Source of the DNA: a virus
Length of the DNA stretch: 22,099 nt
Strand: one strand, 5' to 3'
IMG/VR virus record: IMGVR_UViG_3300035698_004518
Location: 1-22,099 of that record
Positions 3,924-22,099 of this stretch are shown in pieces. Both the position numbers and the translations under genes were made by a program. Position 1 is the stretch's first letter. Each line of letters opens with the position of its first letter. The notes beneath the pieces were generated by a model, which saw only the letters and a program-made list of their open reading frames with translations, was not told the origin of the DNA and did no database searches.

Positions 3924-4306
3924 TCTATTAAGAAAAGATTACAAGCTGTGTAAACAAATGATGTTCCGGAGCCTGTAGAATCATAGACTCCAGGAACATT
4001 AAATGCTTCTTTAACTCTGAAATCGTTTCCCTCCACGGTAATTTTGTCATTTTTTACAACACCTGATGCATACTTTGCGAGAACTACAGCATCACCCTTT
4101 TCAAAGAATCCTGCTTTTTCAAAATCCCATCGCTGGTTAGTCCTCATAAAATAAGCTTTAATGGTAACTGCTGTTCCATCCGTTAATGTTTCTTGACCTG
4201 AAACATTTGATACAGTTTTAACTATAGGAGTGTGTGTAAGCTGTCTTCCAGCATAGTCTGATAACATTCTATCAAAATCTTTTACCGTTAATATGTTTTG
4301 TACCAT
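3920..4306 (-). CDS. Putative head closure / head-tail joining protein
   Basis: This 128-aa, beta-rich protein begins MVQNILTVKDFDRMLSDYAG. Segments such as TAVTIKAYFMRTNQRWDFEKAGFF, KGDAVVLAKY and KITVEGNDFRVKEAFNVPGVYD fit the small beta-barrel head closure proteins (SPP1 gp16 / lambda gpFII type), which often carry a G-D-A-x-V-x-x strand and a V.Y...G...F.V pattern. Its position between the connector and the gp10-like gene supports this. It ends in an ATGA overlap with the next gene. The family assignment is by pattern and order only. Confidence 0.6.
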   Translation of the reverse strand: MVQNILTVKDFDRMLSDYAGRQLTHTPIVKTVSNVSGQETLTDGTAVTIKAYFMRTNQRWDFEKAGFFEKGDAVVLAKYASGVVKNDKITVEGNDFRVKEAFNVPGVYDSTGSGTSFVYTACNLFLIE

Positions 4307-5679: not shown

Positions 5680-5817
5680 TTATTTCTTCCTCCTTGTCTG
5701 TTTTGTTAACCCTTTATTTTTCTTATCAAAATAAAAAAATTGAATAGCTTTGATAAGTGCTCCTAAAAAGAATACAATAGCAATTGTGTCTTGGATACTT
5801 AAGTGTTTTTCAATCAT
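5680..5817 (-). CDS. Small single-pass membrane protein (45 aa)
   Basis: The ATG (5817-5815) overlaps the stop of the upstream 145-aa gene in an ATGA junction, and the stop abuts the next ATG (TAAATG). The protein begins MIEKHLSIQDTIAIVFFLGA and has one hydrophobic helix at about residues 10-30 (TIAIVFFLGALIKAIQFFYF). A strongly basic end follows (DKKNKGLTKQTRRKK), suggesting an N-out/C-in single-pass topology. A small membrane protein in the middle of a head operon is unusual. It could be holin-like, a virion-associated membrane factor, or a viral membrane-targeting peptide. None of these can be decided from sequence. Confidence 0.6.
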   Translation of the reverse strand: MIEKHLSIQDTIAIVFFLGALIKAIQFFYFDKKNKGLTKQTRRKK

Positions 5818-6251
5818 ACTGCTTCGCTCCCGTCTCCTTTTCTCCAATCGTTTACTTTACCCAATGGGTGTAGTACACAATTTAGATGGTTACCTTTGAT
5901 GCTTTCAGTCCTCCGTAAATCCGATGATTTTGTTTTATCTAAATCATCCTCGATTGGTTTTAGGAATTTGAAAAACTTCCTGAAGTATTTAATGTATTTA
6001 CTTAGTTTCGCATGTAATTCCTGTGTGGTATTCTTTTGATAGTTCGAATTTTTATCTTCGTTATATCTAGTTAAGTCCTTTAGGTCGGCCAAAACTTCTT
6101 CATACCCACATTCATTGAAATTAATATTATACATTTTAATTTCACGAAACCGTACTTTACACTTTCCGTTTGCGTATTCTTTACCATGAAAATAGTTTTC
6201 AACTCTTTTCAACGCATCAGGATACCCTTCTCCAATTGCTATTATATGCAT
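5814..6251 (-). CDS. Hypothetical protein of the head module (145 aa)
   Basis: The protein begins MHIIAIGEGYPDALKRVENY and is lysine- and aromatic-rich. A helical middle (about 85-105, HAKLSKYIKYFRKFFKFLKP) is strongly basic and amphipathic. The end contains GNHLNCVLHPLGKVNDWRKG, with two His and a Cys close together that could bind metal. No family is recognised. Its start lies 6 nt after the decoration-like gene stop with only a weak GGGGT about 15 nt upstream, and it couples by ATGA to the membrane-protein gene. Its composition (more Lys, Cys and aromatics) differs from the neighbouring virion proteins, so it may be a non-structural insertion (moron). Confidence 0.55.
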   Translation of the reverse strand: MHIIAIGEGYPDALKRVENYFHGKEYANGKCKVRFREIKMYNINFNECGYEEVLADLKDLTRYNEDKNSNYQKNTTQELHAKLSKYIKYFRKFFKFLKPIEDDLDKTKSSDLRRTESIKGNHLNCVLHPLGKVNDWRKGDGSEAV

Positions 6252-18768: not shown

Positions 18769-19023
18769 TTTAATATGATTACCTCATCTCTATGGGATAA
18801 AGATGAGGTAATACGGTTACCCCTTTTTATCATCTATATCAACCAGAATGTTGTGAATTCGCATACACAAAATCTTATCCTCCATATATCAGGAGTTGAT
18901 TGATACAATAGACCTCACGATTTTACCCTTCGTTTCCACTAGGGTTTTTGGTCTTGATGAATATGATGAGTGAGGGAAAAAGATTGTGTTGAAAAAACCC
19001 CCACCCAACATCTTGATTTTGCG
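18769..19023 (-). other. Non-coding leader region before the large terminase
   Basis: These 255 nt lie between the 59-aa zinc-ribbon gene and the large terminase. They hold a 12-bp-stem hairpin at 18778-18812, a small hairpin overlapping the zinc-ribbon gene end (TCTTGA and TCAAGA arms around 19011-19029), a G-rich then T-run stretch on the minus strand (GGGTGGGGGTTTTTTC), and a GGAGG. That GGAGG stands about 12 nt before a 15-codon frame (MRIHNILVDIDDKKG). No longer credible gene is visible. Confidence 0.5.
18778..18812 (-). promoter_or_regulatory. Hairpin covering the large-terminase ribosome site
   Basis: The arms ATTACCTCATCT (18778-18789) and AGATGAGGTAAT (18801-18812) are perfect inverse complements of 12 nt with an 11-nt loop. 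In the minus-strand message the 3' arm contains GAGGTAAT, the only good ribosome-binding sequence before the terminase ATG at 18768, and it would be paired in the folded state. This suggests control of terminase translation by RNA structure or a binding protein. Confidence 0.6.
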
Positions 19024-19205: not shown

Positions 19206-19664
19206 TTAATCATTTGATAATCTTATAACTAAATCCTCTTTTTCTTTATCTGTTAAAACTATGGCAGAAATTAAATGTTTTGAATCATTTTCTTTTGTTC
19301 CGTGTTTTTTAGCATGCCAATCTAAAGCCCTTTGAACTGCTATATTCATATCTTTTATTTCATGTGATTCTTTAATCATCTTTTGAATATATTCAAGAAT
19401 ATACATTTCAGACATATTATAATCAGTCATCATTCTAAAAATCATTGCCTCTCCCTCATTGTTCAAACCTTTCTTACGCATCTCTCTGAGTCTTGCAGCA
19501 ATTTTTGCGTTTGGATTATCTTTTAATGCCTTACCACCATCACTACGTATCTTTCTTTGTTCTACCTCTCCCCTGGTACTAAGTATTTTAAGGTTTTTTA
19601 ATGAATTAGGATGCATTTTTTTAGTCTTCTCAGAGTAGTCTTGAGTTATTTCATCACCTGTCAT
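19206..19664 (-). CDS. Putative terminase small subunit
   Basis: This 152-aa protein is the first minus-strand gene and lies two genes upstream of the large terminase, the usual place of the small subunit that recognises viral DNA. Residues about 19-60 (HPNSLKNLKILSTRGEVEQR and then RSDGGKALKDN) resemble the N-terminus of phage small-terminase-like proteins that carry an N-L-K....R....GGKA motif. The remainder is helical and ends with a charged helix (LTDKEKEDLVIRL). I infer the role from place and this motif only. The ATG has no ribosome site, but a TATA box is centred about 24-25 nt upstream, which suits a leaderless archaeal transcript. Confidence 0.5.
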   Translation of the reverse strand: MTGDEITQDYSEKTKKMHPNSLKNLKILSTRGEVEQRKIRSDGGKALKDNPNAKIAARLREMRKKGLNNEGEAMIFRMMTDYNMSEMYILEYIQKMIKESHEIKDMNIAVQRALDWHAKKHGTKENDSKHLISAIVLTDKEKEDLVIRLSND

Positions 19665-19684
19665 ACGATAATAATAATAATATT

Positions 19685-19692
19685 CTTTATAA
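19685..19692 (-). promoter_or_regulatory. TATA box for the minus-strand structural operon
   Basis: The minus strand reads CAGAAAC TC TTATAAAG, a TATA element preceded by an A-rich BRE-like segment and centred about 24-25 nt before the first ATG (19664). Archaeal TATA boxes are centred about 26 nt before the transcription start, so transcription would begin at or beside the ATG. The absence of any ribosome site is consistent with a leaderless message. Confidence 0.5.
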
Positions 19693-19708
19693 GAGTTTCT
19701 GAAGCAAG

Positions 19709-19812
19709 TGGACAGTTATGACCGTTATCCAAGGTATTCTATACTATACGCGAGAGACTTAAAAAATTCTCTTAAGGGTTGAAAACTACGGGATACCGGT
19801 CATTTCTGTCCA
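19709..19812. repeat. Imperfect 22-bp inverted repeat in the divergent region (candidate origin/operator)
   Basis: The left arm (19709-19730) reads TGGACAGTTATGACCGTTAT then CC, and the right arm (19791-19812) reads GGATACCGGTCATTTCTGTC then CA. The arms are inverse complements at 19 of 22 positions. The 60-bp spacer contains ATACTATACGCG, an inner AGAGA/TCTCT inverted pair (19753-19772) around AAAAAATT, and CTTAA/TTAAG. The location between divergent packaging and replication genes, next to the primase-helicase, fits a replication origin or a two-site operator controlling both promoters. Confidence 0.55.
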
Positions 19813-19841: not shown

Positions 19842-19868
19842 CAAAATTAATATAAATATTTAAATATA
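19842..19868 (+). promoter_or_regulatory. BRE/TATA promoter for the primase-helicase gene
   Basis: CAAAATT (19842-19848) fits the archaeal BRE consensus cRnAAnt exactly. It is followed by AATATAAATATTTAAATATA, which contains TATA-box matches. A start about 25 nt after the first TATA (near 19880) would give a leader of roughly 50 nt before the primase ATG. A bacterial-type reading is also possible: TTGACT at 19817, 17 nt, then TACAAA. Confidence 0.5.
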
Positions 19869-19910
19869 AGTGGTTGTAATATCAATTATGGCTCTAAAAG
19901 TGTGTGATAA

Positions 19911-19918
19911 AAAGGTGA
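19911..19918 (+). promoter_or_regulatory. Ribosome-binding site deciding the primase start
   Basis: AAAGGTGA lies 10 nt before the ATG at 19929. It complements the 3' end of 16S rRNA in archaea and bacteria. An in-frame TAA at 19908-19910 closes the frame just upstream, so this ATG is the first possible in-frame ATG start. Confidence 0.65.
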
Positions 19919-19928
19919 AATTCTCAAA

Positions 19929-22099
19929 ATGTGTATAGAAATCCCATCAAATCTAGACGAATTACGCTTTATCAATCTACATCAGGACAATCCTACTAAA
20001 CAAAAACACCCATATGGGAACGCTTGGACTAAGAATCACTTCTCACACTCTGAGCAAACTCAACGTTTGAACGGTGATAAATCTTATGGAGTAATGTGTG
20101 GACAGTCAAATCTAATTGTTGTAGATTGTGATAGAAAAGAGCTTCAAGATGTAATTCTTCAAAATTCAATGCTATCAAACACTTTCACAGTTAAGACAGC
20201 GGGAAAAGGATTGTACCATTTCTACTTCCAAATTGACCCTGACCAACCATTTCCCGAAAACCCAAGTTATCCAGGTCAACCAAGAGGCTACAAACTAGAC
20301 AATGTAAAAGGTGACCGAATTGGAGATGTTCAAGGTTCTGGAACTCAGGTAGTTGGTCCTAACTCAAAAATGATAGATGGTAGAAGATATGAAATCGTTA
20401 AAGATGTTCCAATTGTCAAAGTTCCTTACGATTATCTGAGAAATCTACTTCTAAACACAGACATTGGAATACATATCATTGAAAAGGAATCTAAAATAAA
20501 AAACCACTCAATATCAGATGAACTCCTAGAGCTCTCAGACCCCCAGACAGCCGCCATAAAGAGCAAAGTTAAAATATCTGACCTATTACCCAAAAAACTG
20601 TTAAAACTCTACCAGGAGTCTCCTAGTGGCCATACTGGGTGTCCCTTCCATACATCTGAGTCCAATTCTTGCTTCCACATCACAGATAACAAGGTTTTCC
20701 ACTGTTTCCACTGTGGAAGGGGTGGAGATGTCATATCTCTTCAACAATATCTAAACGGTGATGATAACTTCATAAAAGCAAAGTTTGACTTGATGAAGAA
20801 AATCGGATTAATAACAGAACTAAAGGCTCAGGTTATAACTGCTTTGGCTAGTAAGAAGCAAAAGGACAAGAACAAGGCATTTGAAATGATGGCCAATGAA
20901 TTCATTAAACTTTACAATGTTAAAACCGTTAGGTCTGATATATCTCCTGAGGTTTGGATTTACGATAAGGGAATTTACGTTCCTAATGGAAAAACCTACA
21001 TAAGAACTTTCATCTATGAAAACATTGGGGCTCTTTCTAATCAACAATTTGACAATCGTGTAATCGATTTAATCATGAAGAAGACTTGGATTGAATATGA
21101 TGACTTTTTTCGAACTACTTATCCTGCTAAGATTCCTGTAATGAATGGAATATTAAATACTGATACACAATCTCTGGAGATATTCTCTCCGAACTATTTC
21201 TTTTTCAATAAACTGCCTGTTTCATTTGACCCAACTGTTGGGTTGCCAAAAACTTTTATGAAGTTTCTAAATGAAATACTTTCAACACAATCTGACCGTG
21301 ATGCTATTCAAGAGATGTTTGGTTATTGCCTTTATCGTGACTACAAATGGCAGAAAGCGTTCTTACTGGAGGGTAACGGTTCTAACGGTAAATCTGTTTT
21401 ATGTAGAATCTTGGAAACTATGTTAGGAAAATATAATGTTTCAAATTTGACTCTTCAATCTCTGGAGACCGAGAAGTTTATGTTACACAACTTAATGAAT
21501 AAACTTGCAAACATTGACGCTGACTTACCTAATAAAACTCTTGAACTTACAAACCGTTTTAAGGCTGCAACGGGTGAAGACCCTTTAGACATTGATAGAA
21601 AGTTTAAGGAGCCTGTGAAGTTTAGAAATTATGCTAAGATGATTTTTGGTTGTAATAACGTTCCTAAAACTAAGGATACTTCTGAGGGATTTATGAGGCG
21701 TTGGATGATTATACGATTTCCTTTCGAGTTTGTTGACAAACCAATTAATCCTAATCAAAAGTTAAGGGATATTAACATTGTAAAATCTTTAACTACTGAC
21801 AAGGAAATGAATAGTATTTTGAATTGGTCGTTGATTGGTTTGAAAAGGTTATTCGAGAATAATAATTTCACACACAACCAGGGTACTACTGACATAAGAA
21901 ATTTCTGGAAGAGGAAGTCCTCAATTGTTGCAGCATTTATCGATGATAATTTAACCGAGGAAGCTGGTGAGATGATTTTGAAGTATACATTCCTAAAAGA
22001 ATTAAAGGAGTATGCACAGAATGAACGGTTACCAATTTGGAGACAGATTAGTAATGAGTTAGAGGAACAGGGAATATTCATCGAACGTAAAACTGTTAA
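19929..22099 (+). CDS. Primase-polymerase / CHC2 zinc finger / SF3 helicase fusion (3' end outside window)
   Basis: The frame is open for 723 codons to the right edge, so the protein is at least 723 aa. An N-terminal archaeo-eukaryotic primase-polymerase domain (about 1-170) has IVVDCDR with Asp66 and Asp68, AGKGLYHFYF with His97, and GDVQGSGTQVVGPNS with Asp133. A CHC2-type zinc finger follows: CPFH (Cys238, His241) and CFHC (Cys259, Cys262), then GRGGDVISL. The C-terminal D5/P4-type superfamily 3 helicase has Walker A GNGSNGKS (482-489, Lys488), Walker B NIDADLP (Asp530, Asp532), motif C FGCNNVP (Asn576, Asn577) and the arginine-finger region GFMRRW (Arg590, Arg591). The remaining part looks like a winged-helix end. 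It should prime and unwind viral DNA, acting at the neighbouring repeat region if that is the origin. Confidence 0.88.
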   Translation, partial: MCIEIPSNLDELRFINLHQDNPTKQKHPYGNAWTKNHFSHSEQTQRLNGDKSYGVMCGQSNLIVVDCDRKELQDVILQNSMLSNTFTVKTAGKGLYHFYFQIDPDQPFPENPSYPGQPRGYKLDNVKGDRIGDVQGSGTQVVGPNSKMIDGRRYEIVKDVPIVKVPYDYLRNLLLNTDIGIHIIEKESKIKNHSISDELLELSDPQTAAIKSKVKISDLLPKKLLKLYQESPSGHTGCPFHTSESNSCFHITDNKVFHCFHCGRGGDVISLQQYLNGDDNFIKAKFDLMKKIGLITELKAQVITALASKKQKDKNKAFEMMANEFIKLYNVKTVRSDISPEVWIYDKGIYVPNGKTYIRTFIYENIGALSNQQFDNRVIDLIMKKTWIEYDDFFRTTYPAKIPVMNGILNTDTQSLEIFSPNYFFFNKLPVSFDPTVGLPKTFMKFLNEILSTQSDRDAIQEMFGYCLYRDYKWQKAFLLEGNGSNGKSVLCRILETMLGKYNVSNLTLQSLETEKFMLHNLMNKLANIDADLPNKTLELTNRFKAATGEDPLDIDRKFKEPVKFRNYAKMIFGCNNVPKTKDTSEGFMRRWMIIRFPFEFVDKPINPNQKLRDINIVKSLTTDKEMNSILNWSLIGLKRLFENNNFTHNQGTTDIRNFWKRKSSIVAAFIDDNLTEEAGEMILKYTFLKELKEYAQNERLPIWRQISNELEEQGIFIERKTV

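Follow-up and report, generated by a model that had tools for sequence, protein, structure and literature searches.

A candidate replication origin with paired 9-bp iterons beside the Prim-Pol/SF3 initiator gene of a likely archaeal tailed virus

A long inverted repeat between divergent gene modules

The window, by which we mean the whole stretch of DNA analysed, is a linear IMG/VR virus fragment of 22,099 bp. A gap of 264 bp separates a leftward structural module on the − strand, which comprises TerS-like, TerL, portal, MuF, protease and SU10-type MCP genes, from a + strand gene for a Prim-Pol/Zn/D5-SF3 protein, here called the initiator. The terminase, portal, protease and capsid genes are those of a tailed virus and not the gene set of a PICI satellite. 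The TerS-like gene owes its name to its position ahead of TerL and to being conserved in that position, while the initiator gene presents 723 open codons and runs rightward off the contig end, its C-terminus being cut off. The gap holds an inverted repeat of 104 bp which ends 116 bp ahead of the initiator gene. The features of the region are as follows.

19206..19664, − strand: TerS-like gene, first in the divergent module; no family match
19686..19693, − strand: putative archaeal-type TATA box CTTATAAA before the TerS-like gene, from a consensus match
19709..19730, + strand: left arm, two tandem 9-bp iterons followed by ATCC
19709-19717 and 19718-19726, + strand: left-arm iterons TGGACAGTT and ATGACCGTT
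19731..19790, no strand: spacer of 60 bp, 67% AT against 70% for the intergenic region; putative melting/priming region
19753-19757/19768-19772: inner pair of the spacer, no better than chance
19791..19812, − strand: right arm, inverted
19812-19804 and 19803-19795, − strand: right-arm iterons TGGACAGAA and ATGACCGGT
19859..19866, + strand: putative archaeal-type TATA box TTTAAATA before the initiator gene, from a consensus match
19929..22097, + strand: initiator gene (Prim-Pol, DnaG-type zinc ribbon, D5_N, SF3 helicase (DUF5906))

A large imperfect inverted repeat had been reported here in a preliminary description of the sequence, and it withstands comparison with randomized DNA. The arms (TGGACAGTTATGACCGTTATCC and GGATACCGGTCATTTCTGTCCA) are complementary at 19 of 22 positions across the 60-nt spacer and form the highest-scoring inverted repeat (span 80-135) of the entire 22-kb record; the score of 21.0 (22-nt arms) was reached in none of 60 whole-window shuffles, which attained at most 17.5, and in none of 2000 shuffles of the intergenic region (maximum 19.0). 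Two details of that description have to be given up. The A6-centred inner pair AGAGA/TCTCT equals the expectation from shuffled spacers (p = 0.55), and the palindromy claimed for each arm, from which dimer binding had been suggested, is weak at 8/14. A 9-bp direct repeat, TGGACAGTT/ATGACCGTT (6/9), fits the left arm better than a palindrome, and the idea of near-palindromic arms that bind a dimer should give way to one of two sites in tandem within each arm. The 9-bp repeats of the window are imperfect, with the right arm taken alone matching at 4/9, and the AT content of the spacer does not exceed that of the flanking DNA.

The hairpin folds better than its shuffled counterparts (z −5.1 for the + strand, −2.7 for the − strand) and a TATA-like site, which at 19686..19693 reads TTTATAAG on the + strand, precedes the left arm by about 20 bp, both as might be seen for a structured RNA (a non-coding RNA, leader or terminator) made from one strand. 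We consider such an RNA very improbable, given that Rfam and tRNA/tmRNA scans gave nothing above threshold, that the predicted core promoters of both genes face away from the element, and that tandem 9-bp repeats within the arms are no requirement of an RNA stem. The length of 104 bp and the inverted ends are also reminiscent of a MITE-like insertion bounded by terminal inverted repeats of 22 bp, an explanation to which we attach almost no weight: target-site duplication is not obvious at the element edges, a second copy of the element is absent from the record, the exact arm pattern does not occur in 2.9 million viral contigs, and the relatives described below carry different sequence at the same place.

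The TATA box TTTAAATA is near-palindromic and hence readable on both strands; sigma-70 promoters are no more frequent than expected by chance. GC skew is uninformative at the element, since that is also where the coding strand switches. No nicking-initiator (HUH-type) domain, such as a rolling-circle double-strand origin would call for, was found in the nine window proteins scanned from this fragment. Two further features of the window were observed. A 16-codon ORF (MALKVCDKKVKFSKCV) at 19888-19938 follows the TATA box, extends into the beginning of the initiator gene and could possibly encode a leaderless leader peptide. At 18778-18812, just upstream of the TerL start codon, lies a hairpin with 16-bp arms (ATTACCTCATCTCTAT-GGG-ATAAAGATGAGGTAAT).

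Viral relatives and the initiator protein

TerL profiles retrieved 47 viral loci of relatives; single-sequence scans with the primase and TerS returned none, and no match of the TerL profile in GTDB genomes was confirmed. Among the relatives' records searched with the initiator, three (L021, L042 and L055) encode it at ~40% identity, in the same divergent order with the terminase as in the window. Each has a large inverted repeat of 104-107 bp in the same gap, with unrelated sequence.

L021, 3514-3617: 104 bp, the ends having been chosen by us to yield 22-nt arms
L042, 5460-5563: 104 bp, 22-nt arms and 60-nt spacer, the exact dimensions of the window element
L055: 107 bp with weaker arms (15/21), spotted by eye and scoring under the scan threshold

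Conservation of the arms in relatives with the same gene order, on which the preliminary description had staked its reading, is thus of a particular kind: the sequences are unrelated, while position, size and 9-bp design are kept. The exact 104/60 agreement of the window and L042 concerns two cases only. Inner spacer pairs exceed chance in L021 (p 0.02) and L055 (p 0.002), unlike in the window.

Archaeal-type TATA boxes adjoin the elements of these relatives too, and among the best cellular relatives of the initiator are several from Diapherotrites, Woesearchaeota and Pacearchaeota MAGs; on these two grounds the host is likely archaeal, perhaps DPANN. Another relative, L002, whose capsid protein (MCP) is 86% identical, carries a different replication module (BT4734-like_N plus AAA_25). 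Its divergent region (2086-2620) is full of ACGTGTGTCAA repeats, with 11-bp spacing at 2358/2369 and 2412/2423, and contains an inverted repeat with 27-bp arms at 2464-2526; L002 represents a swap of both replication module and origin type.

Both a profile search (E 2.1e-32, profile positions 27-715) and Foldseek (2.8e-22) identify the SaPI5 primase-helicase (7OLA, of which ~445 residues are resolved) as the solved relative nearest to the initiator, and ORF904 of pRN1 also matches by profile. The C-terminus missing from the window protein is present in L021, where the last 100 residues are modelled as a winged-helix fold (pLDDT 86). Among PDB entries this domain matches the RFX DNA-binding domain best (prob 1.00, E 0.026), and the P4 alpha origin-binding domain (1KA8, weak) and Cdc6/Orc1 rank lower; no PDB match falls under E 0.001, a value passed by ten viral models, some of them named primase or helicase. 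As judged from the predicted models, the initiators of the relatives end in an RFX-like winged helix.

A 9-bp period within the arms

Sequences of the Sulfolobus plasmids pRN1, pRN2 and pHEN7 and of pDL10 were examined and have their elements at the expected place. When the arms are aligned side by side, each resembles two tandem 9-mers, with a clarity that varies by member, as in these pairs.

Window: TGGACAGTT ATGACCGTT
L042: ACTTACCAA ACTTACCAA
L055: TTTGTCTCA TTTGTCTAG
pRN1: TTATGTCCA TAGTGTCCA
pHEN7: GTCACCACT GTCACAACT

Over nine replicons the self-identity of the arms at lag 9 amounts to 133 matches against 61 expected (z 8.8; 0 of 20,000 permutations), every other lag giving z ≤ 1.3; pDL10 and the right arm of the window (4/9) are individually weak. 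Comparable repeats lie beside a Prim-Pol/SF3 gene, or its SF3 part, in archaeal plasmids, DPANN/Thermoproteota contigs and phages. The same pattern is seen in the Diapherotrites locus L079, mycobacteriophage Adephagia and two haloarchaeal plasmids, of Halomarina and Halarchaeum, in an 8-bp version in a Streptococcus phage, and in the following loci, each given with its doubled 9-mer.

Pacearchaeota, L082: AATGTTAGG
Woesearchaeota, L081: TGAACCACC
Desulfurococcales, L083: AAGTACCAT
Bordetella phage BPP-1, NC_005357 26607-26710 (L089:4608-4711), 104 bp, between bbp27 and bbp28: TTTGCCTCG

The period holds in 34 later loci outside the set from which the idea was formed, drawn from 371 genomes of the phylum of the Pacearchaeota hit and 300 of that of the Desulfurococcales hit, each represented by its top inverted repeat beyond the body of the initiator gene: lag 9 reaches z 10.1 and all other lags z ≤ 0.5, in a count in which L118 and L125 overlap and one element is entered twice. 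Lag-9 identity is 0.469 compared with 0.289 in shuffled copies of the same regions. GC-rich coding DNA acquires lag-9 identity through codon periodicity as well, but accompanied by lags 6 and 12, which are not raised in the arms studied.

Sites bearing the signature number 16 in 563 kb, under thresholds picked after the data had been seen; 12 of them fall in the 50 kb of DNA that surrounds the ends of initiator genes and four in the other 513 kb, while 326 kb from relatives in which the initiator was not found contain none. A first comparison of adjacent DNA with DNA elsewhere was not significant (p 0.36) and misfiled elements, counting as ‘elsewhere’ the many that are embedded in the 3′ end of the initiator gene. 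In the archaeal loci L106, L108, L111, L114, L115 and L129 the inverted 9-bp iteron element overlaps the initiator reading frame at its 3′ end or is contained in that end.

The median span of 32 curated elements is 104 bp (IQR 95.5-110.5), a value that is not evidence by itself because spans of 80-135 bp were admitted by the scan and the median for shuffled regions is 105. A GGYA core occurs in the iterons of 10 of 33 origins, against 1.9 expected with the tandem arrangement kept and at most 7 in 500 shuffles; as a common core of the iterons it is suggestive only, and the window lacks it.

The pattern has its exceptions. No such element was found in L069 (which has a different N-terminal domain), phiC31, Bernstein, an Oceanotoga phage and others, L067 has spacings of 10 and 18 instead of 9, and the spacing in Javan389 also differs. 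Directly upstream of a distant Prim-Pol gene, L070 carries a 119-bp near-perfect palindrome (5777-5895; 53-bp arms, 13-nt loop) without a lag-9 repeat. A search of open-licence papers found no earlier description of the paired 9-bp layout, and the rule appears to be new.

The candidate origin and its comparison with known replicons

We propose, with a probability of about 0.8, that the element is the replication origin of an archaeal virus and is recognised by the C-terminal winged helix of the neighbouring initiator, a proposal drawn from sequence and from analogy with characterized replicons. The preliminary description had already considered an origin; the relatives and pRN1 lend this reading good support, while the conserved arm sequences that it foresaw are not there. 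The winged helix would recognise the 9-bp iterons, two in tandem per arm and inverted across the spacer, so that two sets of protomers would load head to head and SF3 rings would assemble on either side. The ~60-bp spacer would then melt, perhaps aided by cruciform extrusion, and DNA synthesis primed there would launch two diverging forks.

The same binding may also serve to repress the initiator and terminase operons or to set their timing, since the element lies between both core promoters, and it might couple replication to the expression of the two operons. The preliminary description went further in offering a dual operator as an alternative, in which the arms bind a regulator, or the initiator acting as a regulator only, that switches the divergent operons, the element not being an origin. 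Inverted iteron pairs are typical of operators as well and the location between two archaeal-type core promoters allows a second role of this kind, but the same design recurs 3′ of initiator genes or inside their 3′ ends, where it could not be a promoter operator, and the pRN1 element is needed for replication and functional when moved (PMC4234260). We therefore judge operator function to the exclusion of origin function improbable.

In pRN1, a 100-bp stem-loop with a 58-nt loop lies beside orf904, which encodes a Prim-Pol/SF3 protein, and is needed for replication; together with the replication operon it is required and sufficient in cis (PMC4234260, PMC3869888). Within the pRN family the shape of these stem-loop origins is constant and their sequence variable (PMC4234260). 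In gel shifts and footprints ORF904 failed to bind the pRN1 origin specifically, and restoring symmetry rescued one mutation of the stem, which favours shape over sequence (PMC4234260). These experiments weigh most heavily against the proposed mechanism and leave room for a role of a cruciform or a host factor. An origin recognised purely as a DNA cruciform, with the 9-bp repeats as mere by-products, would be in keeping with these data as well as with the stable hairpin and the unrelated arm sequences of the relatives; we nevertheless hold it to be unlikely, as lag-9 identity recurs in unrelated sequences and at no other lag, pairing alone does not demand one fixed period inside an arm, and iterons that change together with each initiator would account for the sequence divergence. 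The authors of the pRN1 work stated that the plasmid is devoid of iterons and that initiator binding motifs were not yet identified (PMC4234260). The 9-bp pattern, as read from the plasmid sequence, contradicts the former statement, and for the latter the paired-iteron rule provides testable candidate sites.

Beyond the window, we consider it probable, if with less assurance than for the window element, that one origin format is common to Prim-Pol/SF3 replicators of archaeal viruses and plasmids and several bacteriophages: each arm would hold a tandem pair of 9-bp iterons, the two arms would stand in inverse orientation around a spacer of ~40-90 bp, and an RFX-like winged helix would read the iterons. 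If true, the pRN-type ‘stem-loop’ and the PICI-type ‘iteron’ origins would be unified, archaeal plasmids, archaeal viruses and several bacteriophages would be joined in one origin design, and origins would become predictable from sequence, offering a route to those of uncultured viruses. For BIP-1, near-identical to BPP-1, another stem-loop at the end of the primase gene has been proposed as the origin (PMC4234260), and the BPP-1 element at 26607-26710 points to an origin other than the published one.

Among known systems the window element most closely calls to mind those of the pRN plasmids and the PICIs. With the former it shares an inverted repeat of ~100 bp that encloses a 58-60-nt spacer and adjoins a Prim-Pol/SF3 gene, arms of two tandem 9-bp units, and a layout that is kept, also across L021, L042 and L055, while sequence is not. 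The pRN1 element is 3′ of its gene and its arms pair perfectly, whereas those of the window and its three nearest relatives are 5′, that of the window lying between divergent operons of a tailed virus and having three mismatches; function has been demonstrated for pRN1 only. The 3′ position is not functionally essential in pRN1, where the stem-loop works after relocation (PMC4234260).

In PICI/SaPI origins (pri-rep-ori), two sets of iterons surround an AT-rich region adjoining the initiator gene, an organisation which, according to its describers, no other known replicon of bacteria shares (PMC6092414). The window has two putative, imperfect iteron sets on either side of a possible melting region, next to the gene of a primase-SF3 initiator whose nearest solved relative is the SaPI5 protein, yet PICI origins are carried by satellites of bacterial phages and are placed 3′ of the gene. 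Downstream of the primase in the Streptococcus satellite Javan204 (L145, ~4095-4210), GGTGACATA GGTGACGTT lie on one side and AACGTCACCCGTCACC on the other of an AT-rich stretch, which from its sequence we take as a PICI-type origin of similar design, differing in its more numerous GGTGAC iterons at 8-10-bp spacing. The winged-helix domain of phage P4 alpha binds repeats at the P4 origin (PMC4234260), and the weak match of 1KA8 to the C-terminal domain of the relatives hints at a comparable origin-binding domain on a primase-helicase; the P4 primase is of the Toprim type, and the comparison with P4 covers the proteins. The element is thus most likely a pRN1/PICI kind of origin in an archaeal tailed virus, differently placed at the 5′ side of its initiator gene.
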